From positions 1 to 40,143 of the forward strand of contig JAGYNC010000002.1 of assembly GCA_018400135.1 (NCBI GenBank): DNA of 40,143 bases, written 5' to 3'. This DNA is from Victivallaceae bacterium (GTDB lineage Bacteria; Verrucomicrobiota; Lentisphaeria; Victivallales; Victivallaceae). Positions within the stretch are counted from its first letter, which is position 1. Each line of letters begins with the position of its first letter. The notes beneath the pieces are model-generated. The model was not told the origin of the DNA and ran no database searches. It worked only from the letters and a program-made list of their open reading frames with translations. Both the position numbers and the translations under genes were made by a program. This document shows, piece by piece, positions 21,038 to 39,528 of the stretch.

Positions 21038-22132
21038 ATGCTGAGTAATATAAAAATTAACAAATCGGATTATGAACCGATTTATATACAAATAACCAAA
21101 AAGCTTCGGAAACAGATTTTGTCTGGAGAACTACCGGACGGCATCCAGTTGCCGTCGGAGCCAGAATTGGCAAAAATATTTTGTGCTAATCGTTTGACGT
21201 TACGTAAAAGCTTAAAACTACTTAGCAATCAACGTTTAATTGTTCAAAACAAGGGACGAGGAACTTTTGTAACTTACGCCCCCAGAAAAAAATATCGCAT
21301 AGGTCTCAATTTCTCGGTGGAGGGAACCGATAAAGATTTCTTCGCGCTTAGAGTTCTCAATGGACTGGTCTATGCATTGCAGAATTTTTTTAATAGCGAG
21401 CTTGTTTTGTTGAATATTCATGATCCTCAAAAGTCATCTATTATGCAGGCTTATAATGAACTGAACTGTGATGGTTTGATCATTGTTGGCATAAATAACA
21501 AAGATGTTGAGGAAGTATGTTCTTCTGAGTTTGACAAGATTCCAGTAGTGGTTATATGTGGTGATAAAGAAATACCTGGGAATGTCAATCACGTGTGTAT
21601 CAACCCCAGCAGCGAGGGGATAACAACTGCGGTTGAACATCTTTTTGAACTTGGACACCGTAAAATTCTGTTTATGTCCACCGCTCCAGATACGCCAGAC
21701 CTTAAAAGGCGTAATGCCGAATATAAACAGGCTATGGAAAATTTAGGTACTGCGGAGACTTCAGAAGCAATTGAAATTACCGATGTTGATTCATGGTATG
21801 ATGCGTCTCGCAATATAATACGGGAAAAATGCATGAGCAATGGCCGCCCAACCGCAATTGTTTGCTCGGGAAGAGTATTTGCTTATGGGGCCTGGCAAGG
21901 GATCATGGAGGCAGGACTTAGAATTCCTGAAGATATATCAATAATCGGTATTGGTTGCGAGGAAGATGCCAATCCGCATTTGAGCACAATAAATGTGGAA
22001 GTTTTTAAGATGGCGGAGCTTGCGGGCGAAAAAGTAATAGATTTGCTTGAGCATCGCAATATCCCCCAAAAAAATATTTATTTTGAACCGGTCATGATTA
22101 ACCGGGGCAGTTGTAAAAGCGTCAAATTTTGA
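21038..22132 (+). CDS. GntR-type HTH regulator with LacI/periplasmic-binding-protein sensor domain
   Basis: wHTH PIYIQITKKLRKQILSGELPDGIQLPSEPELAKIFCANRLTLRKSLKLLSNQRLIVQNKGRGTFV, then LacI-type ligand domain (DGLIIVGIN, HLFELGHRKILFMS, EDISIIGIG). Confidence 0.92.
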   Translation: MLSNIKINKSDYEPIYIQITKKLRKQILSGELPDGIQLPSEPELAKIFCANRLTLRKSLKLLSNQRLIVQNKGRGTFVTYAPRKKYRIGLNFSVEGTDKDFFALRVLNGLVYALQNFFNSELVLLNIHDPQKSSIMQAYNELNCDGLIIVGINNKDVEEVCSSEFDKIPVVVICGDKEIPGNVNHVCINPSSEGITTAVEHLFELGHRKILFMSTAPDTPDLKRRNAEYKQAMENLGTAETSEAIEITDVDSWYDASRNIIREKCMSNGRPTAIVCSGRVFAYGAWQGIMEAGLRIPEDISIIGIGCEEDANPHLSTINVEVFKMAELAGEKVIDLLEHRNIPQKNIYFEPVMINRGSCKSVKF

Positions 22133-22154
22133 AAAGGTTAAAGGAAAATAATTT

Positions 22155-23117
22155 ATGAGAATTACTGGAACTTTTGTTAACACCGTCCCTGGAGATATTC
22201 CTGCAGCGAACTGGGGCTACGAAGAATGGGATCGTGAACTTGAATTAATGAAGCGAATAGGAATAGATACCTTAATTTTATTGCGAACCGGTTGGAAAGA
22301 ATGGCTTTGTTATCCTTCAAAATATCTACAGGCCAAGATGGATTGTTTTGAGTCGTTATATGACTATCTGAAAATGTATTTGTCGCTGTGTGAAAAACAT
22401 GGACTAAGGCTTTTTGTTGGCACTTACAATTCAAACCATGACTGGCTGAGTGCTTCTTACGATGTTGACTATGAGGCTGAAATTATTATGAAATCAGCTA
22501 AAGAGATGTGGGACAACTATGGTTCCAGTCCAGCATTTGGCGGTTGGTACATGACACAAGAGATATCACGAAAAGAATCATTTAGAGTGATTGAACTTTG
22601 GCAAAAAGTGGCGCCGTATTGTAAAGAAATTTCCAATGGCTTGCCGATTTTAATATCTCCCGGAATGGCTGGGGTCAAGTCAGGCAATGTACATCCTAGA
22701 ATGGCGGTAACTCTGGAGGAACACCGTTCTGACTGGGATTGGATTTTTGGGCAGATTTCCGGCATAGTGGATATCGTGGCTTTTCAAGATGGACATGTAA
22801 GTTTTAAAGAGCTGGAAAACTTCCTGGCAATAAATAGTGAACTTGCAGCGAAACATGGTATCGAATGCTGGACTAACGCAGAATCATTCAGCCGGGATAT
22901 CGGTTCTACGAACTTCCCGCCAATTGCTTGGGAAAAACTAATTATGAAACTAGAGGCGGCAAAACGTACCGGACACAGCAAAGCAATAACTTATGAGTTC
23001 ACTCCTTTCATGAGCCCCAATGGAAATTATCCGGCTGGCAAATATCTTTTGGAAAGGTATTGCGAATATTACGAAATTCTTTATAAAAACAAAGTACAAG
23101 AAAAAGAGATGGCATAA
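22155..23117 (+). CDS. DUF4434-like (TIM-barrel glycoside-hydrolase-like) protein
   Basis: N-terminus ITGTFVNTVPGDIPAANWGYEEWDRELELMKRIGIDTLILLRTGWKEWLCYPSKYL. Confidence 0.7.
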   Translation: MRITGTFVNTVPGDIPAANWGYEEWDRELELMKRIGIDTLILLRTGWKEWLCYPSKYLQAKMDCFESLYDYLKMYLSLCEKHGLRLFVGTYNSNHDWLSASYDVDYEAEIIMKSAKEMWDNYGSSPAFGGWYMTQEISRKESFRVIELWQKVAPYCKEISNGLPILISPGMAGVKSGNVHPRMAVTLEEHRSDWDWIFGQISGIVDIVAFQDGHVSFKELENFLAINSELAAKHGIECWTNAESFSRDIGSTNFPPIAWEKLIMKLEAAKRTGHSKAITYEFTPFMSPNGNYPAGKYLLERYCEYYEILYKNKVQEKEMA

Positions 23118-23254
23118 AGTGAAAAATCACGCTATTTAAATGTGTAATTCAAGTAAGGTAACACCATGCTGCTCGACCGACAGGTCTGAAACCGGCAATG
23201 GCGTTAAAGTTAAAAAAATGGGAAACTCATACTTTTATGAGAAAGGAGGTTAAG

Positions 23255-24070
23255 ATGTTTCAACATTATTATGTGGATCATCTAAGGTCATCAAGTCAGG
23301 TTCGAGTAGAAATCAGTGTGAAGAACCAGAACAAAGTTAGAGGGGTGAAGAATGTCAACAATGAAGCGGAATGGCAAAACTTCAAGCATGATTTGGTCGG
23401 CGAGAAGAAGTCGACAAGGAGTAAGTTGTTGTGGCTTAGGGGTTTTACCTTAATCGAACTCCTCGTAACTATAGCCATTATAGCTATCCTGGCCGCAATG
23501 CTACTTCCCGCCCTGAATAAAGTCAGAGATATGGCGAAAGGCACATATTGTATCAACAATGAAAAACAAATAGCCAATTACATGCGCTTTTATGCAGACG
23601 ATAACGATGATTTCATTCCACATTATTATGCATCAAGCGCTCCAAAGGAATGGTGGCGCTCGCTAGGTTATCACTATATGGGACTTGCCCCAAATGCCGC
23701 TCCGGCCAAGGTTTTTTCATGCCCTGCAGCAAAACCACCTTACTACGGTTGGGGTGGGGGCTGGCTTGCAACCGATAATTGTTCGTATGGAATTAATTAT
23801 GCACAATTCAGCACCATTCCTCTTAAAAAGATAAAACGTCCGTCTTCGTTGGTAATGTTTACTGATATAGAAGTTACACCTGCAGGGTATTTCATATGCT
23901 ATAAACCTAGTGCCAAGGATATGGCAGGAACCAGTTATACCAAGGACTGGGGTGTTGCTAACTGGCATTCAAATCTTAGCACGAATATCGGGTGGACAGA
24001 TGGACATGTTTCGAATATGAGAGAGATAGAACTTTACAATAACAAAAACAATTACTATTTCAGCGAATAA
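23255..24070 (+). CDS. Prepilin-type N-terminal cleavage/methylation protein (H-X9-DG-like pseudopilin)
   Basis: [30 protein letters not shown] and C-terminal [24 protein letters not shown] at 23242-23249 supports ATG 23255. Confidence 0.9.
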
Positions 24071-24167
24071 AATTAAAAATCTTTAAGAAACCCAATTTTT
24101 TATTAGATACAATAATAAAATACGCACGGCCTAAATAGTACACATTAACTAGATCAAGGAGTTTTAC

Positions 24168-24935
24168 ATGATTAAGAATATTATTGCCATAACTATCACA
24201 AACGTAGCTTCATTACTTTTGGCAGGTATTGTTTATGGAGAGAGTGTTACATTAAATTTATCAAAAAATTGCAAAGAAGGCAATGTAGAGGTTGCTTTTG
24301 TCAATTACCCTCAGATGGAACAGGGCTTCTCTGGCAAAGGGGTAAAGGTTTTTGGTAAAAATCCTGAGAATATGGTAAAAATCACCCTTGTCAATGGGCT
24401 GCCGTCGCTTGATGGTGGTGGTATATCTTTCTGGATATCCCCTGATTGGAATGGTCGGGACGGAAAATACCACATTCTATGCACACTACATTTCCACCAG
24501 AAAGAGAAATCAGAAAGACGCATTTTGATTTATAAATATGCCAATCCAACAATAAATTCCAAAGGGTTGGGATTGCTTGCTAAATACGATGATGCTATCG
24601 ACAAAAAGCAGGGAATTATTCTAAATATGCCACAACGTAAAATAGGAGAAGATTGGAGCAAGTCAAATTGGCATTTCCTTGCTTTGTACTGGAATAAAAG
24701 TGGAACTAAGCCATTGTTAGAATTATTTGTTGATGGTGAACGAGTAGCATACAGTCATAAGGACTTTGACTTAAGTGGCGAATGTGTAATTACACTTGGC
24801 CCCGTGTGGGGCGAACCTGATGCCACGATTTTTGATCGTTTCAAAATTTACGATCATGTTTTAAGTCCTAAGGAATTAGATAAAGAGTTAGAAATTACTT
24901 TTGAAAAAATTGAAAAAATGAAGGTAAAAAAATGA
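24168..24935 (+). CDS. Exported LamG/concanavalin-A-like domain protein
   Basis: Signal peptide, GISFWISPDWNGRDGKYHILC, HFLALYWN, LELFVDGERV, FDRFKIYDHVLSPKEL. Confidence 0.75.
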   Translation: MIKNIIAITITNVASLLLAGIVYGESVTLNLSKNCKEGNVEVAFVNYPQMEQGFSGKGVKVFGKNPENMVKITLVNGLPSLDGGGISFWISPDWNGRDGKYHILCTLHFHQKEKSERRILIYKYANPTINSKGLGLLAKYDDAIDKKQGIILNMPQRKIGEDWSKSNWHFLALYWNKSGTKPLLELFVDGERVAYSHKDFDLSGECVITLGPVWGEPDATIFDRFKIYDHVLSPKELDKELEITFEKIEKMKVKK

Positions 24936-27112
24936 ATAAGTTAGTTTTGTGCATTTTCTTATTGGCAATTTTGAATGTTACTCATGGCAAAGAACAGTTA
25001 ATTGAAGGAGTTTGGAAGAGTACGCCAATTAATCGTGAGTGGCATGAATTAATTAAGGAATCCCCGTGGCAAAATAACACTTTGGGTAATGACCACAGTG
25101 TGCCTGAACCATGGACAGAGATGCAGACTTCAAAAACAGCTATTAAGTGTTGGAACCGCACGGTTGAATTTGCAGGACACGCCCTGCCACAACAACTTAT
25201 AAGTGCAAATGAGACTTTACTTGAAGGCCCATTTAAAATACGCGTACACAGCGAAGGCAAATGGCATGAGTCCAGTGCCGGAACCGGTAGGATAATTAAA
25301 AAGTTTCCCGATAAGGTGGTTTGGGAAGGGAAGTGTAATGTAAACGAAATACCAGTCGTTACAAAAATTCAAGTAGAATTCGATGGCTTTAGCTGGATTA
25401 CATTACAATTTGGCCCTACCCCTTCGGGAATAAAAATCAAACGCCTAACTCTAGATATCCCGATATTACGGCATAATGCAGAGTACTACTGGAAAAGTTT
25501 TGAAGGATATGCTCCATTTCTCATTAAAGACATGTGGGGAAAGGTCAAAAATAGAAAAATGAATCTCCAACGATTTACTTTGGCGAGTGATAAACGAGGA
25601 ATGAGTTTTTTCGCGGAAGGTCTGAAAGGTTGGATTCTAGACCGCAGAAGTCGACAGGTAGAGTGGCTTCCAAGCGAGGATGCCGTAACCGTCCGTTTTA
25701 ATATTATAGATTCTTATGTAGCGCGTGCTCTTGAAAAGCAGCATACAGTACAGTTAGGGTATACAACTTTACCTATACGTCCTTTTGATCGAAAACTGCG
25801 TAGATACATCGTAAATATTAATGGTCGAGAGCCGGAATATTACAAGGGTATTGCGGGCACTGATATGAGCTTGGCTTCAATTCGCTTGACTTCTTTTATT
25901 CCTGATAATGCTAGAGAAGCAAAGCACAAAAAAACACCCGTATACATTGACAGCTACGTGCCAATAGAAAATGCGGAACCATTCAATCCAGAAGCATTTA
26001 AAAAGTACATAAAACTTTGGCGGGATAAATATCCACGTACTAAACTCGCACTTTACACCGTGGGTAATGAACACAATATACTTGATCCGGTTTTTAGAAA
26101 AAATTATAAAGCATGGAGTGCCACTACCACTCCTTTAACAAAAAACGATTTGGATGAAGCTTTGCAAAAAGCGGGACAAGCTCCTGGTACAAGATATGTA
26201 TGTGGCTGGAACCAAGAATACATCGATTACAAGGTGTTTTACTTATTGTGGTGGTTCGATAAACTGGGATTAGACGGTTATTACTATGATAATCAAACTT
26301 TTGTGCCATGTAACAACCCGGCTCACAAAGAACATCAGTTTAAAGACCACAAAGGACGCTTTTTAAGTATTGCCCCGATTCGTCAATACCGACAAATGAT
26401 GAAACGTGTATATAAAGAAATTAAAAAACGGAAAAAGGATTCTATTATTATTGGTCACGGGATTCCAATGTCGGCACCATTTTGTGATATAGCTATTGAC
26501 GGAGAATGCTTGTTGAAATTAGCAGGTGAACATGGATACTACACGCATTTTGTTTCTGCGGAAGACTGTAGAACTCCTTATTTTAGTGGACATCTTTCAG
26601 GTTTTGCAAAACTATTATTGCCAGAATATAGGAGTAAATTTGCTTGGGGGAAACAGTCGGTAAAACCAACACGTGCTATGTTGAGTTTGTTGTGGATGGC
26701 AGATTTGAGTTATTGGCGAGCTTGGAGTAATGGTAATGTTCTTGACAATGATGCAAGGGTTAGAGGAGAATTTAAGATATGGGAAGCAGAATACGTTCCA
26801 TATTGGGAACATCAAACTGCACTTGTTGATATAAAGGATGTTTATGTTACAATTTACAGCAAAAAGCAGGCGGCGTTGTTAGCGGTTTCCAGCCCGACCC
26901 CCCAAACCCCGGCAGGTGAAGCGACAGTGTCAATCGACCTGAATAAACTTTTTCCAGAGTTGACGTTCGAGCAACGTAGGCAATTGAGCGCTTTTGATGC
27001 CGAAACAGGAGATGCATTGGAATTCCGTAAAATGATGTCAATGAATATTATCGGCATGGATATAAACGTAAATGTTCCCAATCAAGATTTCAGGCTCATA
27101 GAGATAAAATAG
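24932..27112 (+). CDS. Exported glycoside hydrolase-like protein (GH123/DUF6067-like)
   Basis: Signal peptide, VPEPWTEMQTSKTAIKCWNRTVEF, YYDNQTFVPCNNPAH, PIRQYRQMMKRVYKEIKKR. Confidence 0.65.
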   Translation: MNKLVLCIFLLAILNVTHGKEQLIEGVWKSTPINREWHELIKESPWQNNTLGNDHSVPEPWTEMQTSKTAIKCWNRTVEFAGHALPQQLISANETLLEGPFKIRVHSEGKWHESSAGTGRIIKKFPDKVVWEGKCNVNEIPVVTKIQVEFDGFSWITLQFGPTPSGIKIKRLTLDIPILRHNAEYYWKSFEGYAPFLIKDMWGKVKNRKMNLQRFTLASDKRGMSFFAEGLKGWILDRRSRQVEWLPSEDAVTVRFNIIDSYVARALEKQHTVQLGYTTLPIRPFDRKLRRYIVNINGREPEYYKGIAGTDMSLASIRLTSFIPDNAREAKHKKTPVYIDSYVPIENAEPFNPEAFKKYIKLWRDKYPRTKLALYTVGNEHNILDPVFRKNYKAWSATTTPLTKNDLDEALQKAGQAPGTRYVCGWNQEYIDYKVFYLLWWFDKLGLDGYYYDNQTFVPCNNPAHKEHQFKDHKGRFLSIAPIRQYRQMMKRVYKEIKKRKKDSIIIGHGIPMSAPFCDIAIDGECLLKLAGEHGYYTHFVSAEDCRTPYFSGHLSGFAKLLLPEYRSKFAWGKQSVKPTRAMLSLLWMADLSYWRAWSNGNVLDNDARVRGEFKIWEAEYVPYWEHQTALVDIKDVYVTIYSKKQAALLAVSSPTPQTPAGEATVSIDLNKLFPELTFEQRRQLSAFDAETGDALEFRKMMSMNIIGMDINVNVPNQDFRLIEIK

Positions 27113-27121
27113 GAAATTATT

Positions 27122-27802
27122 ATGTATAAAATTATTATTATATGTTTCATGGCTTGTAGCTCTTTATTGGCGGGTGATTTTGTAAAAGAAATAAGGGTAA
27201 ATTACGCTAGTTCTCCCCCCGTAATAGACGGAATCCTCGAAGACAAATGCTGGGCAAAAGAAAAAAAGTTAAGCGATTTCCGTAAATTAAATGCGGCAGA
27301 CATTTTGGCTTTTCCACAGACTACCGTACAATTACTTCATGATAAAAAAAATCTTTATATAGGCTTAAAGGTGAAAAATCCTTTAATAAAAAATATTCCT
27401 GAAGAAAAACATCCCCAGGAAGACGAAAAACAAGCATTTAAATATGATTGTGTAGAGTTCTATTTCTCGGAAAGTAAAACGCAATATGCTTTTTTTGTTG
27501 TTAATGCGCAAGGCTTCAAAGGTGAAGCATTATTTCCCGGCTATGATGCAGATAATTTTTCCTGGAATTGCGAATGGCAGGCAAGAGTTAAACGTTTTGA
27601 TAATTTCTGGACGGCAGAAATTGTGATTCCTTTTGAATCGTTGGAATTTGAATTAAAAACCAAAGAAGCAGTGCTATGGACGAATTTTGCGAGAACTTTC
27701 GCTCAAGGACGTGTAGATAGTAAAAAATATTCCGTGCACAGTTCATTGAACCCTGAATATGGTGGATTTCACGCACTGGGCATAAAACTGATTATGCAAT
27801 AG
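27122..27802 (+). CDS. Exported CBM9-like carbohydrate-binding protein
   Basis: Signal peptide, IDGILEDKCWAK, TVQLLHDKKNLYIGLKVKNP, YDCVEFYF, WTAEIVIPFESL. Confidence 0.75.
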   Translation: MYKIIIICFMACSSLLAGDFVKEIRVNYASSPPVIDGILEDKCWAKEKKLSDFRKLNAADILAFPQTTVQLLHDKKNLYIGLKVKNPLIKNIPEEKHPQEDEKQAFKYDCVEFYFSESKTQYAFFVVNAQGFKGEALFPGYDADNFSWNCEWQARVKRFDNFWTAEIVIPFESLEFELKTKEAVLWTNFARTFAQGRVDSKKYSVHSSLNPEYGGFHALGIKLIMQ

Positions 27803-27824
27803 CTTTCCATACAAACATCATAAA

Positions 27825-29126
27825 ATGCTATTTTCAAGAGAAATTCAGATAAAGAAAAAGGTTCAGGTCTGCATTGTAGGCGGTGGCCCCGCCGGATGTG
27901 CGGCAGCCATTGCGGCAGCACGGCACGGCGTAAAAGTTTTCTTGGCGGAAGCTCATACCTGCTTGGGCGGACTCAGCACTGCCGGAGGTGTCCCAATATT
28001 CATGACGTTTTCTGATGGAGAAAATTTTGTGGCTGACGGAATTGGACGCGAAATACTTGATCGGATGAATATTGAGGATACAGCAAGTCCAATGCCTAAC
28101 AGTATCAGTGCTGAAATATTGAAGCGCTTGTATGAAAAAATGTTACTGGAAGCCGATGTGGACTTTTCTTTCATGACTGAATTCATTGGAACCGAAGCTA
28201 GTGACAATAGCATTACCCATGCAATATTTAATGCGAAAAGTGGGTTATTTGCGGTGGAAGCGGATATATTTATCGATTGCACCGGCGACGGGTGCTTTGC
28301 TGCACGGGCTGGAGCAAAAGTCATGATCGGAGACAAAAACAACAAAGTTATGCCTGCCACGTTATGCTCTTTATGGGCAGGCATTGACTGGGCACAATTT
28401 AGAAAATCAGGAGTCAATCCAAAACAAATTTTGCTTCAAGCCTTTAAAGATGGCATCTTCAGGAATAATGATCCACATCATACCGGCATCAATCAAACCG
28501 GCAAGAATCTTGGTGGCGGCAATATGGGGCATCTTTTCGGACTCGATCCCTTAGATGAAATTTCATTAACAAAAGGTTTAATTGAAGGGCGTAAACAAGC
28601 GGTGGAATTCGAACGCTTTTATAGAAAATACATGCCAGGCTACGAAACCGTGGAATTAGCGGCAACGGCCTCACTGCCTGGGATTCGTGAATCTCGCCGG
28701 GTTGTGGGTGATTATATCCTTAACATAGATGATTATAAAACCAAACGTATTTTCGCTGATGAAATTGGCCGTTACTCATATCCCATCGATATCCATCCTG
28801 CAACAACTAAGCGAAAAGACCAGGCTGAATTTAAACGTTTGATAAATTCATTACGTTATAAAACAGGAGAAAGTTATGGAATCCCTTACAGAATATTAAC
28901 GGTAAATGGATTTAATAACTTGTTGGTTGCAGGACGTTGCGTAAGCACTGATCGGCCATTGCAAAGCTCAATCCGAGTTATGCCAGGATGCTTTATCACT
29001 GGCCAAGTAGCCGGTGTTGCTGCCGCAATTGCGGCAGAACATAATGTAGGCATTCGTGATTTTGATATTTATAACCTCCAACTACGACTGAAAAATATCG
29101 GCGCATTTCTTCCAAATTTTGTGTAA
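27825..29126 (+). CDS. FAD-dependent oxidoreductase
   Basis: VCIVGGGPAGCAAAIAAARHGVKVFLAEAHTCLGGLSTAGGV, IDCTGDG, VAGRCVSTDR. Confidence 0.88.
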   Translation: MLFSREIQIKKKVQVCIVGGGPAGCAAAIAAARHGVKVFLAEAHTCLGGLSTAGGVPIFMTFSDGENFVADGIGREILDRMNIEDTASPMPNSISAEILKRLYEKMLLEADVDFSFMTEFIGTEASDNSITHAIFNAKSGLFAVEADIFIDCTGDGCFAARAGAKVMIGDKNNKVMPATLCSLWAGIDWAQFRKSGVNPKQILLQAFKDGIFRNNDPHHTGINQTGKNLGGGNMGHLFGLDPLDEISLTKGLIEGRKQAVEFERFYRKYMPGYETVELAATASLPGIRESRRVVGDYILNIDDYKTKRIFADEIGRYSYPIDIHPATTKRKDQAEFKRLINSLRYKTGESYGIPYRILTVNGFNNLLVAGRCVSTDRPLQSSIRVMPGCFITGQVAGVAAAIAAEHNVGIRDFDIYNLQLRLKNIGAFLPNFV

Positions 29127-29200
29127 ATACAATATTTCATTTAAAACTTACAGACCTTAAAGAACTTAGGGTATAATCAAATAAAATCAAAAACGATAAA

Positions 29201-31432
29201 ATGAAAACTTTAAAACAAAAATTGAATAAAATGACGGGAATGGGATTTTATAAGCTCCAAGCATTTATTGAACTTAAAAATAAAACCATCAAGCCGATAA
29301 AACATGATTTTATCCTTAATCTCGCAGAAAATCGGGCACATATTAGTCTAACTTATACCGAAAGCATTGAAGAGGATTTATATTTTGAAATCTGTAAGTC
29401 GCATATAATCTGCAAGCGATTAACTCGCAATGCTTCGAAAAAAGTGGCAAAAATCCGCGAAACCGGATTTCGAATAGATGGACTAAATCTGGGTGATAAG
29501 GCTGATAATGATTATTTTTATCATGTCGAAAATCCTCGCATTTATGATAAGATGACTATAAAACTTGATACTATTCGCTCTCCTGATATGGCTAAAGACA
29601 GCGGTTACGATGTACAAGCCGGCAACCGCTGGTCGGACCCGGGAACGGTTTCCGAACGTATTGGACGGTCGCCATATCAGCCTTTCCCTGCTATCGGCTT
29701 GAGCAATTATGCTGTAAAGTCTGGACTAGTTCACGGAACATTGTCGCAGGATGTGTTTTTTCATAATTATTTAGTCGGACATTCTAAAAATGGAGCATTC
29801 CTGGATATCCGTTCCGGCTTTAAGGCTGTTGCCTCCCGAGAGTTACAGGCCGGGGAAAGCATTACTGATGTATGGTATCTTGGCAAGGCGGAAAATGCTG
29901 ACAATATCGAAAAGGTTTTTGCGGAATACTGCGAGGTACTCAGGAAATATTTGCCGCCATTGTGGGGGGCTACTGCCATAAACCGGAACTCGCTGGTTTG
30001 GGGTTCGTGGAATGATAGTATTTACAGGGATATTAACAGTGAACGTTTGGTCAAAAATGCCGAATTTATCTCCGCCAACTTTCCCATGGTCGAATGGCTG
30101 CAAATTGATGATGGTTATGCTAAATATGACAAGGTTGCACATGGTTTGGGGATGCCTTATGAAGGTGAAGAAGGATTGAATAAAGAGAAATTTCCCGAAG
30201 GTTTCAAGGGCTTTACCGACAGAATAAAGCAAACAAACTTGCGCCCTGCAGTGTGGATTGGCGGTTCTTGTCCTGATGAAACCAGTATTGCACAGGAAAA
30301 ACCGCAATGGGGAGCTAAATATGATTTCCGCCTGCCTAATCATCTGATTTTGGATATTAGCCAGCAGGAAGTACGCGAATATGTAGAAAAAGCTTTAGAT
30401 TTCTTTTTCAAGGATGGTGGCTTTGAGGGAATGAAACATGATTTCTGGAGTTATCCATTTGAAGCCAGCGAAGACCTGCTCAAAAACAAACATCGCTCCG
30501 GATATGAATGGAGGGAATGGTGGTTGAGCGAAATTCGTAAGCGTATTCCTGACAATGCTTACCTTCAGACCGGCTGTGATATTGTGATGGGAAACCCTTT
30601 CCTGGGAAAATATTTTACCAATTATCGCTATGGCATTGATATTGGTGGTGGTGAATGGAAGAATGTCAAAGCGACGTTTTTATGGGGAGCTGCGTGTTTT
30701 GCCACTCATACTGGCGACTTATTTGTGCCGAACAGCGATTCCGTAGGACTGTTTCCGGGACTAACCGATGACGAAGCACTATTGTGTATTAATTACTGTC
30801 TTATCAGTCGTTCAATGGTTGAAATAGCAGGCTGGTTGTATAAAGAAGATACGGATAATCCGCGTTTCGCCATATTGAAAAAAGCAGTATGTTGCATAAA
30901 TAATGGACAAGATGTATTCTTTGTTGATTACGACTATCGTTTAAAAGATGATGCTCCTGAAGTATGGTACATAAAAACTCCACATTTTTCCACTTTGAGT
31001 GAAACCCCAGGTCTACCTCTTCGAACAGTGGCGTTATTTAACCTGAAAGACGAAGTTAAAAATTTTGAAATTAAATTTAGTTCTTTAGAGCTTGATGAAG
31101 ACAGCTATTTTGTTAAAAACGTTTGGACAAACGATTGTTCTGTTGAACAAAAAATTAAATGCACTTTGCCTGCTCACTGCAGTGCTTTGTACATGATTAG
31201 TTCACGAAATAAACCACAATTGCTTGACTCAAATATTAAGATTGATTCGGTACAATTGGGGAATAATTTCATGACTTTTAATTTTGGCTATACCGGCAAT
31301 TATGAATTGATGCTTTCACACAAACCTATTAATATGGACTATTTTGAAACAAACAGTGGTTTTATTGTTTCCGGCAAAGCAGATATCCATAAAAATTTAG
31401 TCATAAAATACAGCAGTAATAATAAAAATTGA
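29201..31432 (+). CDS. GH36-like alpha-galactosidase-family protein, no signal peptide
   Basis: WLQIDDGYAKY, PAVWIGGSCPDE, MKHDFWSYPFE (KxD), YGIDIGGGEW. Confidence 0.75.
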   Translation: MKTLKQKLNKMTGMGFYKLQAFIELKNKTIKPIKHDFILNLAENRAHISLTYTESIEEDLYFEICKSHIICKRLTRNASKKVAKIRETGFRIDGLNLGDKADNDYFYHVENPRIYDKMTIKLDTIRSPDMAKDSGYDVQAGNRWSDPGTVSERIGRSPYQPFPAIGLSNYAVKSGLVHGTLSQDVFFHNYLVGHSKNGAFLDIRSGFKAVASRELQAGESITDVWYLGKAENADNIEKVFAEYCEVLRKYLPPLWGATAINRNSLVWGSWNDSIYRDINSERLVKNAEFISANFPMVEWLQIDDGYAKYDKVAHGLGMPYEGEEGLNKEKFPEGFKGFTDRIKQTNLRPAVWIGGSCPDETSIAQEKPQWGAKYDFRLPNHLILDISQQEVREYVEKALDFFFKDGGFEGMKHDFWSYPFEASEDLLKNKHRSGYEWREWWLSEIRKRIPDNAYLQTGCDIVMGNPFLGKYFTNYRYGIDIGGGEWKNVKATFLWGAACFATHTGDLFVPNSDSVGLFPGLTDDEALLCINYCLISRSMVEIAGWLYKEDTDNPRFAILKKAVCCINNGQDVFFVDYDYRLKDDAPEVWYIKTPHFSTLSETPGLPLRTVALFNLKDEVKNFEIKFSSLELDEDSYFVKNVWTNDCSVEQKIKCTLPAHCSALYMISSRNKPQLLDSNIKIDSVQLGNNFMTFNFGYTGNYELMLSHKPINMDYFETNSGFIVSGKADIHKNLVIKYSSNNKN

Positions 31433-31463
31433 TACCTATATATGAGTGACCTAAGGAATTGAC

Positions 31464-33842
31464 ATGAAGAATTATGGTCATTTTGATCAGGCAAAACGTG
31501 AATATGTAATTACTAATCCGATGACGCCGGAACCGTGGATTAATTATTTGGATGGTAATAGTAATCTAAGAGCTTTTGTTTCCAACGGCGCAGGAGGTAC
31601 TGTTTGGCATGGACAAGCCCATACCGGACGGCTTACTCGTTATCGTTTAAACGGCTTACCGATGGATACTCCTGGGTTCTATGTCTACATCAAAGATGGG
31701 AATGATGTCTGGTGCCCATCGTATTTTCCCACTATGACCGAACTGGATAGGTGGGAATGTCGGCACGGAATGGGTTACACATGCTTTAACGCTGTACATG
31801 AAAATATTCGTGTTCAACTAAAATATCTCATCCCATTAAATGATGAAATTTTGTTGTGGGATTTGACGATTAAAAACTGTTCCAAAACACCCCGTCAACT
31901 GGAGATTTATCCATATATTGACTACTCGTTGCATGATTTTGATAAAGACACCCTTTATTTCCTAGTCTGCGGTAATCAGGCCAAATACCGTTGGGACAAC
32001 ATAAGCGGAGGACTGCTGAGTGATTACTTCGCATTCGAAGCGCCATTTCCCGGCAATACACTTTTTTCCGCCAGTGAATCTTTCACCGAATTCGATATGA
32101 ACCGAAACAAATTCATCGGTCGAGGCCGGACTGAAGCCAATGCTATCGGACTTTGGGACGGGCTGAAAAATACTGAGGTTAAAGATGGCGGATTCTACGC
32201 ATGTGGCGTATTCAAGCTGCATTTTACTTTACAACCGGGACAGTCCAAAAGGGTTATTATCAAACTTGCAGCAGGAACTAGCCTCAATAAGATTAGATAT
32301 TTATCAGAGAAATACAACTCCACAGTGATGGTCGACAACGCAATTGAAGAACTCAACACGTGGTGGAAAAATAAACTGGAACGGAGCCAAGTTGAAACCC
32401 CTGACTCCAAAGCTGACGAAATGCTTAATGTCTGGCTACCCAAAAACATTCACACTACTATGCGCAATGGGCGGTCAATTTCACATCGTCACTCAGGTAA
32501 TAGTTCATCGCTGCGTTTTCGTGATACAATGCAGGACATTATGGCCGGGATCGATTTTTCTGCCGAAAGAACCCGTGGAATAATTTTGCTGCTCATGCAG
32601 TCGATTACCGCCTCCGGAAGAATTGTAACCAGTATTGATCCAACAACATATATCTGCCCAACTCCGCAACACACCCGTAGCGATGCAATTGTATGGGGTG
32701 TTTTGACATTATACAAATATCTTGCAGAAACTGGTGATATAACAATTTTAGATGAGGTTATCCCGTATTACGATGACAATAAAGGCTGTGTGCTTGAACA
32801 CTTAATCCGAGGCATGCACTTTATCGGAAAAAACATTGGCGAAAAAGGACTACCAAGGTTGTTCGATTGCGACTGGAACGATATGTTGCAGGTTTTTGCC
32901 AATGCCAAAGTCGGTGGCGAAAGTGTTATGCTGGCAGAGCAATATATCTACTCCGCAAAACTTCTGATTGAAATTCTCGAATATAGTGGACACCAAGAGG
33001 AGATACAGTTTTTTGAAAATAAAATTAATGATTTTTCAGAAATCCTTGCTTCTGATATCTGTTGGGACGGTGCATGGTTTAAACGTTTGCTTTATCCCAA
33101 TGCCGAAATAGGTAGCAAAAGCAACACAGAAGGAAAAATTTTCTTGAATACACAGAGTTGGGCAGCTATTTCCGGGGCATTACCTGAAAAGAAAGTTCGT
33201 ATTGCATTGGACAATGTTACCAAAATGCTTGACACTGAATGTGGAATCCGATTGTTTACTCCGCCGTTTACCACAATGATGGATGGAGTAACTCCTTTCA
33301 ACACCAATGCCCCAGGAGCTGGAGAAAATGGCGGGTTATTTCTTCATGCCAATACTTGGGCGATAATTGCTGAAACCATGATGAAAAATCCGCGTCAGGC
33401 CTGGAAGTATTTTTCTCAGATTCTGCCGAATAATCTCTCGAAACGGAATCCAGAACACTACGGACGTGAACCATACGCCTTTGCTTCCTGGATTTATGGG
33501 CCGGATCACGACGCATTCGGACATGCCGCACTCACCTGGCTTACCGGTGGTGCCGCCTGGGTTTACATAGCTGGAACAGAATATATTCTGGGAATAAGAT
33601 CAACTCTCAAAGGGCTGGTAATAGATCCTTGTATTCCTCCCGAATGGAACGGATTCAAGGTTAAACGCATAGTGCGCGGCGCAGAATATCATATTAACGT
33701 TAGTAACCCATATAAAATTGGATGTGGGATAACAAAATTGACAATTGGTGGTAAATCTGTTGACAATAATACAATCCCGTACGAGTTGGCTGGAAAAATC
33801 ATCAATATTGCAGCAACCATCGATGGTAAACAATCGGCCTGA
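31464..33842 (+). CDS. GH94-like glycoside phosphorylase, no signal peptide
   Basis: YGHFDQAKREYVITNPMTPEPWINYLDGN, RLFDCDWNDMLQVFANAKVGGESVM, PGAGENGGLFLHANTW. Confidence 0.88.
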   Translation: MKNYGHFDQAKREYVITNPMTPEPWINYLDGNSNLRAFVSNGAGGTVWHGQAHTGRLTRYRLNGLPMDTPGFYVYIKDGNDVWCPSYFPTMTELDRWECRHGMGYTCFNAVHENIRVQLKYLIPLNDEILLWDLTIKNCSKTPRQLEIYPYIDYSLHDFDKDTLYFLVCGNQAKYRWDNISGGLLSDYFAFEAPFPGNTLFSASESFTEFDMNRNKFIGRGRTEANAIGLWDGLKNTEVKDGGFYACGVFKLHFTLQPGQSKRVIIKLAAGTSLNKIRYLSEKYNSTVMVDNAIEELNTWWKNKLERSQVETPDSKADEMLNVWLPKNIHTTMRNGRSISHRHSGNSSSLRFRDTMQDIMAGIDFSAERTRGIILLLMQSITASGRIVTSIDPTTYICPTPQHTRSDAIVWGVLTLYKYLAETGDITILDEVIPYYDDNKGCVLEHLIRGMHFIGKNIGEKGLPRLFDCDWNDMLQVFANAKVGGESVMLAEQYIYSAKLLIEILEYSGHQEEIQFFENKINDFSEILASDICWDGAWFKRLLYPNAEIGSKSNTEGKIFLNTQSWAAISGALPEKKVRIALDNVTKMLDTECGIRLFTPPFTTMMDGVTPFNTNAPGAGENGGLFLHANTWAIIAETMMKNPRQAWKYFSQILPNNLSKRNPEHYGREPYAFASWIYGPDHDAFGHAALTWLTGGAAWVYIAGTEYILGIRSTLKGLVIDPCIPPEWNGFKVKRIVRGAEYHINVSNPYKIGCGITKLTIGGKSVDNNTIPYELAGKIINIAATIDGKQSA

Positions 33843-33955
33843 GAAAAATATCGAACAAATGTGTTTAAGGAGCATCCCCCTACCGAAAATTCAGGATTTC
33901 AATTCGTTGGCAATCCGCACATAAAAAATATGAACAAGCAAAAGAAGGGAATAAA

Positions 33956-35335
33956 ATGATTTTGCTAAAAGAGAAAATTAAAGAGCAGCTCATGCCGTAT
34001 CCGCGTTATTTGGAACTGGGAGACGGCGTATTTAACAATGCCTCTGATGCTTCTGTTCGAATTAATGCAACAGGAGAGAATAAACTTTCATATTTATTGA
34101 GTTTATGTGGTTTTTCTGGATCAGTGCAATATGAGCCAATAGATAGCCAATATTTAATTTTAAGCATAGGAACGAAAACACACACATTTCAGCCAATAGA
34201 GCCAGAGCTTAAGGAAGTTGAGGCTTATGCTCTTGATGTAACAGAAAATTCAATATCAATTAGTGCGCGTTCTATAAATGGAATTGGTTACGCATTGAAA
34301 ACACTAGCGAAAATAAAACATATTGCCAGCAACATCCCAGTTATGCAAATTCAGGATGCGCCTGAGATTGAATTTCGCACGGTTCATCTTTGTATTTTTA
34401 ATCCGAATGACGGTACTGAAAAAGAAGCTACGGCTCCAGACGACATTAAACGGATGATTAAGCTTGCAGCGATGAGCGGATACAATCATGTAATGCTTGA
34501 ATTCTGGGGTATGTTTCCTTATGAAAAACATCCCTACGCAACATGGCCCAACAAGTTATATTCTAGGGAAGTTGTCGATGGCATTATTTCATATGCCATT
34601 GATAATCTGTTTATCACTCCCCTGCCATGTCAGAACTTAACTAGTCATGCCGGTTGGAGCCGAATTGACAGCCGTAAACATGTTGTGCTTGATCAACGTC
34701 CCGACTTGGCAGATATGTGGATACCAGGCGGCTGGTGTTTTGCCACCGAAAATCCAGATACCAAAGATTATCTCAAAGATATAATGTCAGAATTACTTGA
34801 CACCTTTCGCAATCCACCATTTCTGCATGCCTGCTGCGATAAAGCCTTTGGTTTTGGTTCAAACGAAAAGGACCGAACTAAATCAGCGGATATTTTATTT
34901 GGTAGTCATTTGTGTTTTTTAAATACCTTTTTACAAGAGCGTAGCACACGAATGATAATGTGGAGCGACATGCTCTACTCTTCAATGGATGCATTATACT
35001 GGAAAAACAATCCTGCCCTCGTAGATGTGCTGCCCCGCAATATTTTGATGAATATTTGGACACATAATGATCCAGGCACTCATTGGGGGGATCCTGAATT
35101 CTTTGAAAGTAAAGGATTTCAGACCATTTACTCACCGTGGATAAACAAAAAAGGCGTTGACAACATGATTGATATTTGTAATAAACGTGGCAGTTACGGA
35201 ATTATGCAGACAACCTGGCACCTGCCACAGACTGCGACCGATTCTGTTGCTTATTCAGGGGCCGCACAGTGGAACTCTAATAAATTGGCGGCAGATATTG
35301 AACAACATCTTAGTAAATGGTATAACGGACATTGA
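33956..35335 (+). CDS. GH20-like (beta-N-acetylhexosaminidase-related) protein with altered DE motif
   Basis: GH20-like N-terminal pseudo-barrel region and EFRTVHLCIF...MIKLAAMSGYNHVMLEFWGMFPYEKHP. Expected H-x-x-x-DE reads HACCDK. Confidence 0.65.
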   Translation: MILLKEKIKEQLMPYPRYLELGDGVFNNASDASVRINATGENKLSYLLSLCGFSGSVQYEPIDSQYLILSIGTKTHTFQPIEPELKEVEAYALDVTENSISISARSINGIGYALKTLAKIKHIASNIPVMQIQDAPEIEFRTVHLCIFNPNDGTEKEATAPDDIKRMIKLAAMSGYNHVMLEFWGMFPYEKHPYATWPNKLYSREVVDGIISYAIDNLFITPLPCQNLTSHAGWSRIDSRKHVVLDQRPDLADMWIPGGWCFATENPDTKDYLKDIMSELLDTFRNPPFLHACCDKAFGFGSNEKDRTKSADILFGSHLCFLNTFLQERSTRMIMWSDMLYSSMDALYWKNNPALVDVLPRNILMNIWTHNDPGTHWGDPEFFESKGFQTIYSPWINKKGVDNMIDICNKRGSYGIMQTTWHLPQTATDSVAYSGAAQWNSNKLAADIEQHLSKWYNGH

Positions 35336-35466: not shown

Positions 35467-36374
35467 CTAACCTTTTCCGGAAACCGCATTAACTCCGCAT
35501 TTTTGTAATATTGTTACCGTGTGCTGTAATGCATCGTCGTCTGGAAATTTTGCATCCGGCATCGTGTCAGGCATTCCTAAGGCAGTATATTTTGTGTGAG
35601 CCATGGAATGATAAGGTAGGACTTTTACCTTTTCGAGCTTCAGTTTTCTCAGCAGTTTCCCCGTGTTCAGGAGATTGATTTCGGAATCATTGCACCCCGG
35701 GATAAGCGGAATGCGAATTTCGATTCTGGTGCCGGATTCAGATAAACGCTGTAGGTTGGCAATGATTAACTCATTGCCCCGTCCTGTCAGCTTTCGATGT
35801 TCAAAACTGTCAGAATGCTTGAAGTCAAAGAGAAACAAATCTGTTATCGGGATAATTCTTTTAATAACGTTCCAGCTTACGCATCCACAGGTATCAACCG
35901 CAGTATTGATTCCATCTCTTTTCAGTTTGTTCAACAGTCCATAACAAAATTCCGCCTGAAGTAAAGGTTCGCCACCGGATAAAGTTACTCCACCATCTGA
36001 GCCATAGAAATCCCGATCCTCCGCCGCAAGTTTTACCGTCTCGTTAACTGTGACTTTTCGTCCATAAACCGTAAAGCATTGCCCAAGCATACCGCTTCGC
36101 AAATACCGCAACTCCGGCATTTCTCCCGATTGAAGCCATGTTCACCATCTGTCAGTCCATGAGCATGTTCCGGGCATACAGAAACGCATTCTCCGCAATT
36201 AATACATTTATGCTTGTAATAAGCAAGTTGCGATTTCGACGCTATACTTTCCGGATTATGGCACCAGCCGCAGTGTAGCGGACATCCCTTTAAAAATAAT
36301 GTGGTCCGCACGCCCGGGCCGTCGTGGACTGAAAAGCGTTTAACGTCAAATAACATTCCAGTAATGGTTTTCAT
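35467..36374 (-). pseudogene. Glycyl radical enzyme activating enzyme (radical SAM), split by a frameshift
   Basis: N-part 36033-36374 carries KGCPLHCGWCHNPES and two CxxCxxC ferredoxin clusters. C-part 35467-36120 carries VTLSGGEPLLQ. The frames join near 36071-36077. Confidence 0.8.
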
Positions 36375-36377
36375 TGT

Positions 36378-38588
36378 CTACTCACTGATATTCAACGCAC
36401 GTTTGATGTATGTATCCTGTTCTTTTTTCGCGATGTCGTTGAAACGGACGTTCCAACCGCACACGCGAACCTGCAGGCCTTCGTATTTTTCCGGGTGTTT
36501 TTGGGCATCGATCAGAATCTTGGCATCGAAGATATTGAAATGAATGGCAATGCCGTGTTTCTCCATATAAACCTTAAGCAAAGTACGCATTGCTGCAAGC
36601 CCTTCATCCCCTTGAACCGTAGCAGGATGCATCATTACATCCAGAGGAAAATCACCCGGAAACTTTGCCGAATCAATTCTGGTCACTGATTTTACCAGTG
36701 CGGTTACACCGTTAACATCCATGCCCATGGTCGGAGATGTGTTTTTAGACATTTCTTCGCCAGCCAACCTACCGTCAGGTGTCGCTCCGGTCTTTTCTCC
36801 CAAAGTTATAAAGGTTCGCGCCGAGTGCATGGAAGCTATATAAAATCCATTGCGGGTATTAGGACGCATGTTAATTTTTGACGCCACATAATTTGCTATT
36901 TTCTCTGCATAAGCATCAACACAATCAATACCGTTTCCATATTTGGCTTTGCAGTGCAATGCCTTCAGCCTGAGTTTTTCGTATCCTTTCCAGTTCAAAT
37001 CCAGAACTTTCTTGAGCTCAGGCAAACTCATGGCCTTTTTCTCAAAAACTAATTCCCGCACTACCATTAAAGCATCTACAGCTGTTGCCAAACCAGCTTG
37101 CAATATTGAAGAAAAGTTATAGACAGAACCATTATGAAAAGCATCTCGCGCATTTTCTAAACTATTACTAATAGTAGCTGAAAAAACTTGAGCCGGATTA
37201 ATAAAACTTAGATATTTCTCAATATCATTCGTACAACAAATTACATTTTCAATTGTATTTCCTAACTGCTGTAGATAGGCTGCAAAAAAATCATCGAAAG
37301 TATTTATATGTGCGATTTCGCCTGTTTTGCCCCCGCAACTGATACCACTATACGGATCAATTCCGTTATTAAAAACTAGTTCAACAGGCTTAAGCATATT
37401 GATATAGACAGGTATAGTGGTATTACCGCGTCCACGCGGAATAAATTCATAACAACCTGAAATATCACAAGTTCGCGCCTCTTCCTCGGAGACTCCAATT
37501 CCCATCATTGCTCGCTTGATGGAGGGTTCACTAATAAAAACAATACTGCTGTTACCGCGCCGGATCATATCCAGTGCTTTATTAATAAATTCAACCGGAG
37601 TGTTTGGGGAGATTTTGAGCTGCAATTTGGGCGTGCAAATGTTAAGTTTGTCGAATACGTCCAAAATTAAATAAGACAATTCGTTTATTTCACTTTCTCC
37701 ATTCTTTTTTGTACCACCGAAATAAAAGGGGTGTCCCCAGTAATTATCAATTGAGGCCCATTGCATCAGGAAATATGAGAAAAATTCACGGATCTGCTCG
37801 CGTGTATATCTCTCTTCCTGTAAGTCTTTAAGGAAATACGGATATACGGTGCGATCCAAATTGTTAAGTGAACGCACCTGAAAGCGATCAATATGCTCCG
37901 AAAACATAAAAAATAAGTAGACCAATTGAAGCACTTCAAAAGTATTTGTCGGAGCACCGTGAATTAATGTATTTAAACACTCGGTTACCGCAATTATTCG
38001 CTTATTGTTAGTAACATTTTTCAAGGCTTGGGAATGAAAGCGTTCCAGCATTTCAATAATTGCGCTATATGTAATTTCTATTCCGTCAAAATAAGCTTGC
38101 GCTTCAGCATTCATCAAGCCTTTTGCCTCGCGTTCCTGGCGATAGCGCCTTGCACGTTCTCTGAGTCCAGGGAAGCCAAGCGAAAAAATGGCATCCCAAT
38201 CAGGGACTGAATGATCGAAATCCTTCCACACTACTGCGGCACCGGAAGTATTCTGCTCATTTATGAGATTTCGTGTGCTCAAATACTTAATATCGACTTC
38301 ATTGTTCCATTTGGCAATTAATGAATCCAATGGCCGTTCATACCTGTTCCAACAACCGAAACCAACAAACCAATCATGAGGATTAACGTCGATCTGGACA
38401 TTTCGAGTTACATATTCAAAAACTTTTGCCTTAATGACCGGATGCGGTAAGCCTTCCAGCTTTTGGGCTAAAACAATAATATTTGTTTTAAGCGTTTTGT
38501 TATCCATTCCGGTATCTGGACCAAATACTGGACTTCTGAACTTGTTTAAAAGGTAAGGATAATCTTGTTTAAAAGTACTCGTTGCCAT
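36378..38588 (-). CDS. Glycyl radical enzyme (pyruvate formate-lyase-like), substrate unknown
   Basis: Glycyl loop VRVCGWNVRF (Gly711, 36456-36458), thiyl motif CDISGCYEF, PFL-type N-domain. Confidence 0.9.
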   Translation of the reverse strand: MATSTFKQDYPYLLNKFRSPVFGPDTGMDNKTLKTNIIVLAQKLEGLPHPVIKAKVFEYVTRNVQIDVNPHDWFVGFGCWNRYERPLDSLIAKWNNEVDIKYLSTRNLINEQNTSGAAVVWKDFDHSVPDWDAIFSLGFPGLRERARRYRQEREAKGLMNAEAQAYFDGIEITYSAIIEMLERFHSQALKNVTNNKRIIAVTECLNTLIHGAPTNTFEVLQLVYLFFMFSEHIDRFQVRSLNNLDRTVYPYFLKDLQEERYTREQIREFFSYFLMQWASIDNYWGHPFYFGGTKKNGESEINELSYLILDVFDKLNICTPKLQLKISPNTPVEFINKALDMIRRGNSSIVFISEPSIKRAMMGIGVSEEEARTCDISGCYEFIPRGRGNTTIPVYINMLKPVELVFNNGIDPYSGISCGGKTGEIAHINTFDDFFAAYLQQLGNTIENVICCTNDIEKYLSFINPAQVFSATISNSLENARDAFHNGSVYNFSSILQAGLATAVDALMVVRELVFEKKAMSLPELKKVLDLNWKGYEKLRLKALHCKAKYGNGIDCVDAYAEKIANYVASKINMRPNTRNGFYIASMHSARTFITLGEKTGATPDGRLAGEEMSKNTSPTMGMDVNGVTALVKSVTRIDSAKFPGDFPLDVMMHPATVQGDEGLAAMRTLLKVYMEKHGIAIHFNIFDAKILIDAQKHPEKYEGLQVRVCGWNVRFNDIAKKEQDTYIKRALNISE

Positions 38589-38653: not shown

Positions 38654-38685
38654 AAAATACCTTTCATTTGTCGTATAGTACCATT

Positions 38686-39528
38686 ATGATAATTAAATCA
38701 AAACATAATCTTGATGTTCAGCCAATGTTTTGCAGAAAACATTATTTTGCTGATTCCACGAAGTGGGTAAAACAATCATTTCCAGTCCTGGCAATGGTTA
38801 CCGGCGGCAAGGCTAAACTTATGCTAAATTATAAGTCAACGCCAGATATCTCGCTAAAGCTTCATCAACCATTTTTTCTTTCCCCAAATTTGATACGAAA
38901 ACCTCTTCCGGATAAACCCAATGAACTTGAAATTGTGGCACTGGGATTTCAGGTGAAAATATTTGACGGAATAGACTTGTTCAATCTGCTTGAAATACCA
39001 ATGTTTTTTGAAGATGAAGCATCTAAGTACTTGTGTGATTTGATGCAGGAAGCATATTTGGCGGAAACAGCTGAAGAAGAGAACTGGCTTCTGAAGACTG
39101 CGGCGAAAAAAAGGATTTTATATGAAATAGTAGAAAATATATTTTCATCGTTATCACAAGATAAAGTAATTAATGTTGGATTCTCAGATGGTATGCATTG
39201 TCTGCCGGCAATCAAATATCTGAATGATAATTTCAATATCCCCTTGAATATTCCTAAGTTGATGAGATTGTGCAATCTTTCACGAACCCATTTCTTCCGT
39301 TTATTTAAAAAACAAACTAATTTCACGCCTTTTGAATACGTAAAAAACTGTCGTCTGCAGAAAGCGCAAAATATGTTGCTATGTGCCAATCTTTCTATAT
39401 CTGAAATTGGTGACAAGGTGGGATGGCCAGATCAATTTCATTTCAGTCGCATTTTCAAAAAAGAGATAGGTTTATCCCCTAACAACTACAGACGGCAGTT
39501 TCTAAAAGGCAGAACAAAAAATTTATAG
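38686..39528 (+). CDS. AraC-family transcriptional regulator
   Basis: Two HTH: IPLNIPKLMRLCNLSRTHFFRLFKKQTNFTPFEYVKNCRLQKAQNML and ISEIGDKVGWPDQFHFSRIFKKEIGLSPNNYRRQF. The ORF track starts at a TTG (38668); the ATG at 38686 is likelier. Confidence 0.93.
   Translation: MIIKSKHNLDVQPMFCRKHYFADSTKWVKQSFPVLAMVTGGKAKLMLNYKSTPDISLKLHQPFFLSPNLIRKPLPDKPNELEIVALGFQVKIFDGIDLFNLLEIPMFFEDEASKYLCDLMQEAYLAETAEEENWLLKTAAKKRILYEIVENIFSSLSQDKVINVGFSDGMHCLPAIKYLNDNFNIPLNIPKLMRLCNLSRTHFFRLFKKQTNFTPFEYVKNCRLQKAQNMLLCANLSISEIGDKVGWPDQFHFSRIFKKEIGLSPNNYRRQFLKGRTKNL

Follow-up and report, generated by a model that had tools for sequence, protein, structure and literature searches.

A GCYE/RVCGWN subfamily of glycyl radical enzymes in Victivallaceae and other anaerobes, a candidate eliminase of carbohydrate-derived compounds

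Which reaction does a glycyl radical enzyme (GRE) encoded next to a glycan cluster in a Victivallaceae genome catalyze, and do these neighbors supply its substrate? The window analyzed here, i.e. the whole stretch of 40,143 nucleotides from assembly GCA_018400135.1, contains on the minus strand (36378..38588) an open reading frame with an ATG start that encodes 736 amino acids and belongs to what we call the GCYE/RVCGWN subfamily. The product is a real full-length GRE of the oxygen-sensitive radical enzyme superfamily, with matches to PF02901 (PFL-like, E=2.6e-95, 320.9 bits against a Pfam cut-off of 24.3) and PF01228 (Gly_radical, E=7.3e-22, 78.3 bits against a cut-off of 22.2).

The radical loops and the adjoining activase

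The reading frame and both loop motifs given in the original prediction match the translation exactly. The thiyl loop CDISGCYEFIPRGRGN (residues 374-389, 37422..37469, minus strand) provides C379 as the candidate thiyl residue and E381 as the putative base, while the glycyl loop RVCGWNVRF (residues 708-716, 36441..36467, minus strand) carries the radical site G711 with C710 beside it. The published GRE fingerprint is RVXG[FWY], so that the aromatic residue after the glycine may be a tryptophan (PMC11528403). RVCGW together with the mid-protein cysteine C379 conforms to the superfamily fingerprint, and related genomes encode further GREs with a tryptophan after the radical glycine (RISGW, RVSGW, RVGGW); the tryptophan is therefore not the oddity it was first taken for. 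The noncanonical aminoacyl radical enzymes (PMC11528403) were ruled out because the radical glycine is present.

A C-x-E motif in the cysteine loop is the mark of GRE eliminases (PMC8473560). GCYE was originally set apart from both the GCVEP of common dehydratases and the CC motif of pyruvate formate-lyase (PFL), and the middle residue, the following proline and GC-for-CC do differ; the eliminase C-x-E is nevertheless intact, and the departure from GCVEP is confined to the middle residue and the proline. What distinguishes the protein is GCYE together with an invariant cysteine before the radical glycine (RVCGWN). This position is Ser in PFL and Ala in the aligned GRE eliminases, and among the references compared the cysteine is common only to the class III ribonucleotide reductase NrdD of E. 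coli (RRVCGYLG). NrdD is, however, a separate GRE family, and a Pfam match to it is absent for the 36378-38588 product. Scans for promoters and terminators gave signals at chance level.

An activase adjoins the GRE (36374 to 35467, minus strand), as expected of this superfamily, though it is frameshifted in assembly GCA_018400135.1, where it is split over two frames with the change near 36066. The N-terminal part (36033..36374, minus strand) contains the radical-SAM CxxxCxxC and two 4Fe-4S motifs and matches TIGR02494 with 2.7e-37; the C-terminal part, in the other frame (35467..36120, minus strand), reaches 193 bits with the same model (cut-off 174). Could the system be decaying in this genome, with the GRE left unactivated? 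An activase that is readable only across two frames would fit such a loss. We judge it unlikely, as the GRE is intact with all conserved residues and relatives have intact activases of 57-75% identity. The N-terminal part is 75% identical to the intact activase of locus L033, and single activase reading frames of relatives span both parts seen in the window. Moreover, the assembly consists of 403 contigs at 87% completeness, so that an assembly error is possible, and the same genome has a second activase on contig C201.

This genome has just one further GRE, which is encoded on the latter contig within the region 4988-11562 of L051. It is a protein of 763 amino acids with GCQEP and an atypical glycyl loop, MRIHGTF, in which no aromatic residue directly follows the glycine. 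An activase is among its neighbors; the others, like it named by eye, are genes for an FGGY-type kinase and a GntR/LacI-type regulator and one resembling phosphomannose isomerase.

A separate clade of GREs

In a whole-protein search of 61 genomes, identities ran from 71 to 54%, then from 44 to 37% and from 36 to 32% before falling below 30%. GCYE and R[VI]CGWN are present in all 19 of the best matches, which were picked without regard to motifs, and C710, G711, W712 and N713 are invariant among these members. In a larger set of 59 aligned members, the invariance of RVCGWN follows in part from the pattern used for the scan, a bias of which the 19-member set is free. Full-length profile scores across 388 genomes of the phylum, taking in the best two candidates per genome, fall into two groups of at least 664 bits and at most 446 bits, the upper comprising 43 genomes by our count. 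When GTDB species genomes were scanned with a seed pattern, 394 relatives emerged; the best 80 belong mostly to Lentisphaeria/Victivallales, Phycisphaerae and gut Clostridia, the last in large number, with a few other bacteria besides. Relatives were not found in the viral collection searched, and among the matches listed for the plasmid collection there were only CutC and other GREs of about 25% identity.

A maximum-likelihood tree places 28 sampled members in one clade (support 100/100) apart from glycerol dehydratase (GDH), PflD, YbiW, CutC, HypD and PFL, with HypD and GDH entered as partial sequences from printed alignments and a reference set without IslA, HplG and the X-succinate synthases. 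The nearest branch (92/85) consists of uncharacterized GCWE/RISGW GREs from the same bacterial family (L023, L025, L026, L030), which likewise have a tryptophan in the glycyl loop but differ in Ser-for-Cys before the glycine and in GCWE-for-GCYE. Identity to the reference GREs, aligned over their length, is 19-25%.

With the 36378-38588 product, every NCBIfam GRE model stays below its cut-off. We rejected its identification as HypD (NF043068, 314.6 bits against a cut-off of 1100; Q237 at the D278 position; a separate branch), choline TMA-lyase CutC (TIGR04394, 219.6 against 1050), sulfopropanediol dehydratase HpfG/HpsG (NF048009, 238, and NF048011, 220, against 1000), indoleacetate decarboxylase (NF033718, 201.6 against 1100), hydroxyphenylacetate decarboxylase (NF033715, 174.6 against 1150) and PFL (TIGR01255, 77.8 against 994; GC and not CC in the thiyl loop). 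PflD, the anhydromannitol-6-P enzyme, was rejected by its separate clade and by NF007437 (PRK09983), which we take to be the PflD model (230.8 against 1109), and glycerol/propanediol dehydratase by its separate clade and by Q237 and V238 at the H281/S282 positions.

The protein had been predicted to be an uncharacterized GRE, a description upheld by its own clade, the missed equivalog cut-offs and the low identity to references; clustering with a characterized family of unrelated function, named in advance as the outcome that would speak against it, was looked at in the tree, and the subfamily is separate from the references included. In the literature covered, which leaves out most subscription journals, we found no paper on this subfamily or on GREs of Lentisphaerae/Victivallales. 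Taken together, this is a large, coherent and apparently uncharacterized subfamily, mainly of gut and sediment anaerobes.

Radical enzymes are markedly expanded in several related genomes (G033, G056, G018, G023 and G051), with 8-13 GRE matches each; modules of GRE, activase and AraC are found in tandem, and some pairs of GREs share one activase (L105, L117, L097, L086). One tandem member (L097, 10001-12214) has GCYG in place of GCYE and has thereby lost the near-invariant catalytic glutamate.

Predicted fold and proposed reaction

The predicted fold of the GRE (mean pLDDT 94.8, pTM 0.93) is best matched by propanediol dehydratase (5i2g), HypD (6vxc) and glycerol dehydratase (1r8w), and structures of PflD and YbiW with bound anhydrosugar phosphates rank lower. 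The PDB matches 7kq3 (1e-40) and 4pkc (6e-35), on the isethionate lyase (IslA) / X-succinate synthase side, are weaker. The B12-independent glycerol/1,2-propanediol dehydratases (1r8w, 5i2a/5i2g) are alike in fold (TM 0.77-0.89), in the C-x-E loop and in a histidine at the H164 position. On the other hand, identity to them is about 25%, the subfamily has a shorter N-terminal part, GCYE and RVCGWN stand against GCVEP and RVAGYS, H281 and S282 are replaced, and the loci are without microcompartment genes. For HypD, the trans-4-hydroxy-L-proline dehydratase, the fold score is similar and the equivalents of C434, E436 and H160 are retained, whereas the subfamily has Gln at D278, a score below the cut-off and a different branch in the tree.

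In the alignment, C379, E381, H126 and G711 correspond to C434, E436, H160 and G765 of HypD, a numbering confirmed from primer sequences (PMC7077986), and HypD mutants at these four residues are inactive (PMC7077986). C379, H126 and Y380 are found in 59/59 aligned members and E381 in 58/59; R239, K321 and D650 are, like Y380, invariant in all 59.

The residues around the leaving group are different. Protonation of the leaving group is assigned to H281 in GDH and to D278 in HypD. The position of both is occupied by Q237 in our protein, with Gln in 51/59 members, and V238 lies where GDH has S282. Because Gln replaces H281/D278 and Val replaces S282, the leaving-group chemistry may differ, which would suggest an eliminase with altered leaving-group handling.

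We therefore favor, with moderate confidence and at slightly better than even chance, a 1,2-eliminase, either a dehydratase or a C-O lyase, that acts on a carbohydrate-derived polyhydroxy compound and is induced by its substrate via the divergent AraC regulator. The residues, the predicted fold, the clade and the operon are established, and the chemistry and the substrate class are what we infer. The neighboring activase would generate the radical on G711, from where it would move to C379; the thiyl radical would then abstract a hydrogen from an OH-bearing carbon, and E381 would deprotonate that OH, with H126 tuning it in the manner of HypD. The resulting ketyl radical would lose a leaving group at the adjacent carbon, either water or an oxygen of a ring or an ester, after which the radical of the product would regain a hydrogen from C379. 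The original proposal of a dehydratase or lyase for a sugar-derived alcohol thus holds as to class, since the protein retains C379, E381 and H126 and its fold is nearest to 1,2-eliminases; partner genes in sister branches make a carbohydrate substrate plausible.

Gene neighborhood and candidate substrates

Neighbors were counted for those 95 GREs of the subfamily whose flanks extend 1.2 kb or more on each side, and the glycan genes of the window were searched by tblastn at 106 relative loci. A same-strand activase lies within 2.5 kb in 60/95 and a divergent AraC gene within 700 bp in 38/95. The conserved unit is AraC (divergent), GRE and activase, and the window has the same layout, with an AraC-family gene at 38668..39528 on the plus strand (PF12833, 1.2e-20) as the probable regulator of the GRE.

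Most loci comprise only these three genes, and sugar-type partners occur in sister branches and not in the window. They include a SASA esterase (7 loci, 10/10 on the GRE strand), a CMD-family protein (6 loci, 11/11), a NAD-epimerase (5 loci, 7/7), an SMP-30 lactonase (4 loci, 4/4) and an EamA transporter (5 loci, always or mostly on the GRE strand), and GDSL esterases are recurrent. In one close-packed run (L116), GRE, EamA, activase, L-rhamnose isomerase (RhaA), GDSL esterase, L-rhamnose mutarotase (RhaM) and a Gfo/Idh oxidoreductase follow one another. As SASA genes of the compact, high-scoring type are rare (4 in 21 related genomes), their recurrence near these GREs, in Lentisphaeria as well as in Clostridia, is probably more than coincidence. 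A carbohydrate-type substrate is plausible from these partners. No product-consuming enzyme is conserved at the relative loci. Near the GREs of L059, L064, L084 and L086, in three of them directly upstream, there is a small CMD-family (carboxymuconolactone decarboxylase-like) gene, whose product may assist or protect the enzyme.

Could the substrate instead come from the glycan genes of the window itself? These genes (21038-35335, plus strand) comprise a GntR/LacI-type regulator, GH123_N, CBM9, an FAD oxidoreductase, a melibiase-like gene, GH94 and a GH20-like gene, which makes the earlier term sugar island a fair one. Several proteins at 24932-33842, beside GH94 and the FAD oxidoreductase, are weakly assigned (GH123_N-like, melibiase-like), and a protein of 255 amino acids at 24168-24935 has no Pfam match. 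The cluster is physically close to the GRE, and a melibiase-like gene of 53% identity lies near the GRE of L073. But the cluster is on the opposite strand and convergent with GRE and activase, and its genes occur at 0-2 of the 106 relative loci, apart from the generic regulator in 5. The last gene, GH20-like (33956..35335, plus strand; PF00728/PF02838 weak), converges with the activase, has a similar protein at 1/106 loci and is probably outside the GRE unit. Because these genes are convergent and not carried by close relatives of the GRE, the suggestion that the adjacent glycan pathway delivers the substrate finds no support, and we regard it as highly improbable.

That GREs can use sugars is known from E. 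coli PflD and YbiW, which act on anhydrosugar phosphates (PMC12441222). A divergent form of this activity, the ring-opening of 1,5-anhydrohexitol 6-phosphates or similar phospho-sugars, would agree with the sugar context, the shared eliminase fold and the invariant R239 and K321, which could be anion binders. The identity to each of the two enzymes is 24%, however; the subfamily lies outside the GDH/PflD/YbiW group in the tree, and its NF007437 score is 231 bits. PTS and FSA-aldolase genes were not found near the 106 loci, and there was a single sugar-phosphatase match; microcompartment genes were likewise absent. We consider a PflD/YbiW-type activity very doubtful.

A different reaction class recruited in anaerobes (decarboxylase, C-C or C-N lyase, or C-S lyase) deserves somewhat more weight and is still rather unlikely. 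The replaced dehydratase leaving-group residues Q237 and V238 speak for it, and the CMD, SASA and lactonase partners could be compatible with an acid or lactone pathway. Against it stand the C-x-E motif and the GDH/HypD-type histidine in nearly all members, as well as scores far under the cut-offs for the HPAD, IAD, CutC and sulfopropanediol models.

The reaction that this subfamily, widespread in Lentisphaeria and gut Clostridia, carries out on carbohydrates might be new for any GRE; an acylated sugar, a sugar lactone or a deoxy-sugar derivative might, for instance, undergo elimination or ring-opening, with the cysteine beside the radical glycine maybe participating in radical transfer or protection; we put this forward tentatively, at a little less than an even chance. 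To our knowledge, the characterization of almost every GRE family has brought a new anaerobic pathway to light, as with choline, hydroxyproline, isethionate and anhydrosugars. The present subfamily has hundreds of members, many of them from the gut or the rumen, a minimal unit fixed as AraC, GRE and activase, and one known cultured host, Oligosphaera ethanolica DSM 24202 (L064). It is thus an accessible candidate in which to look for a new radical step of carbohydrate degradation.
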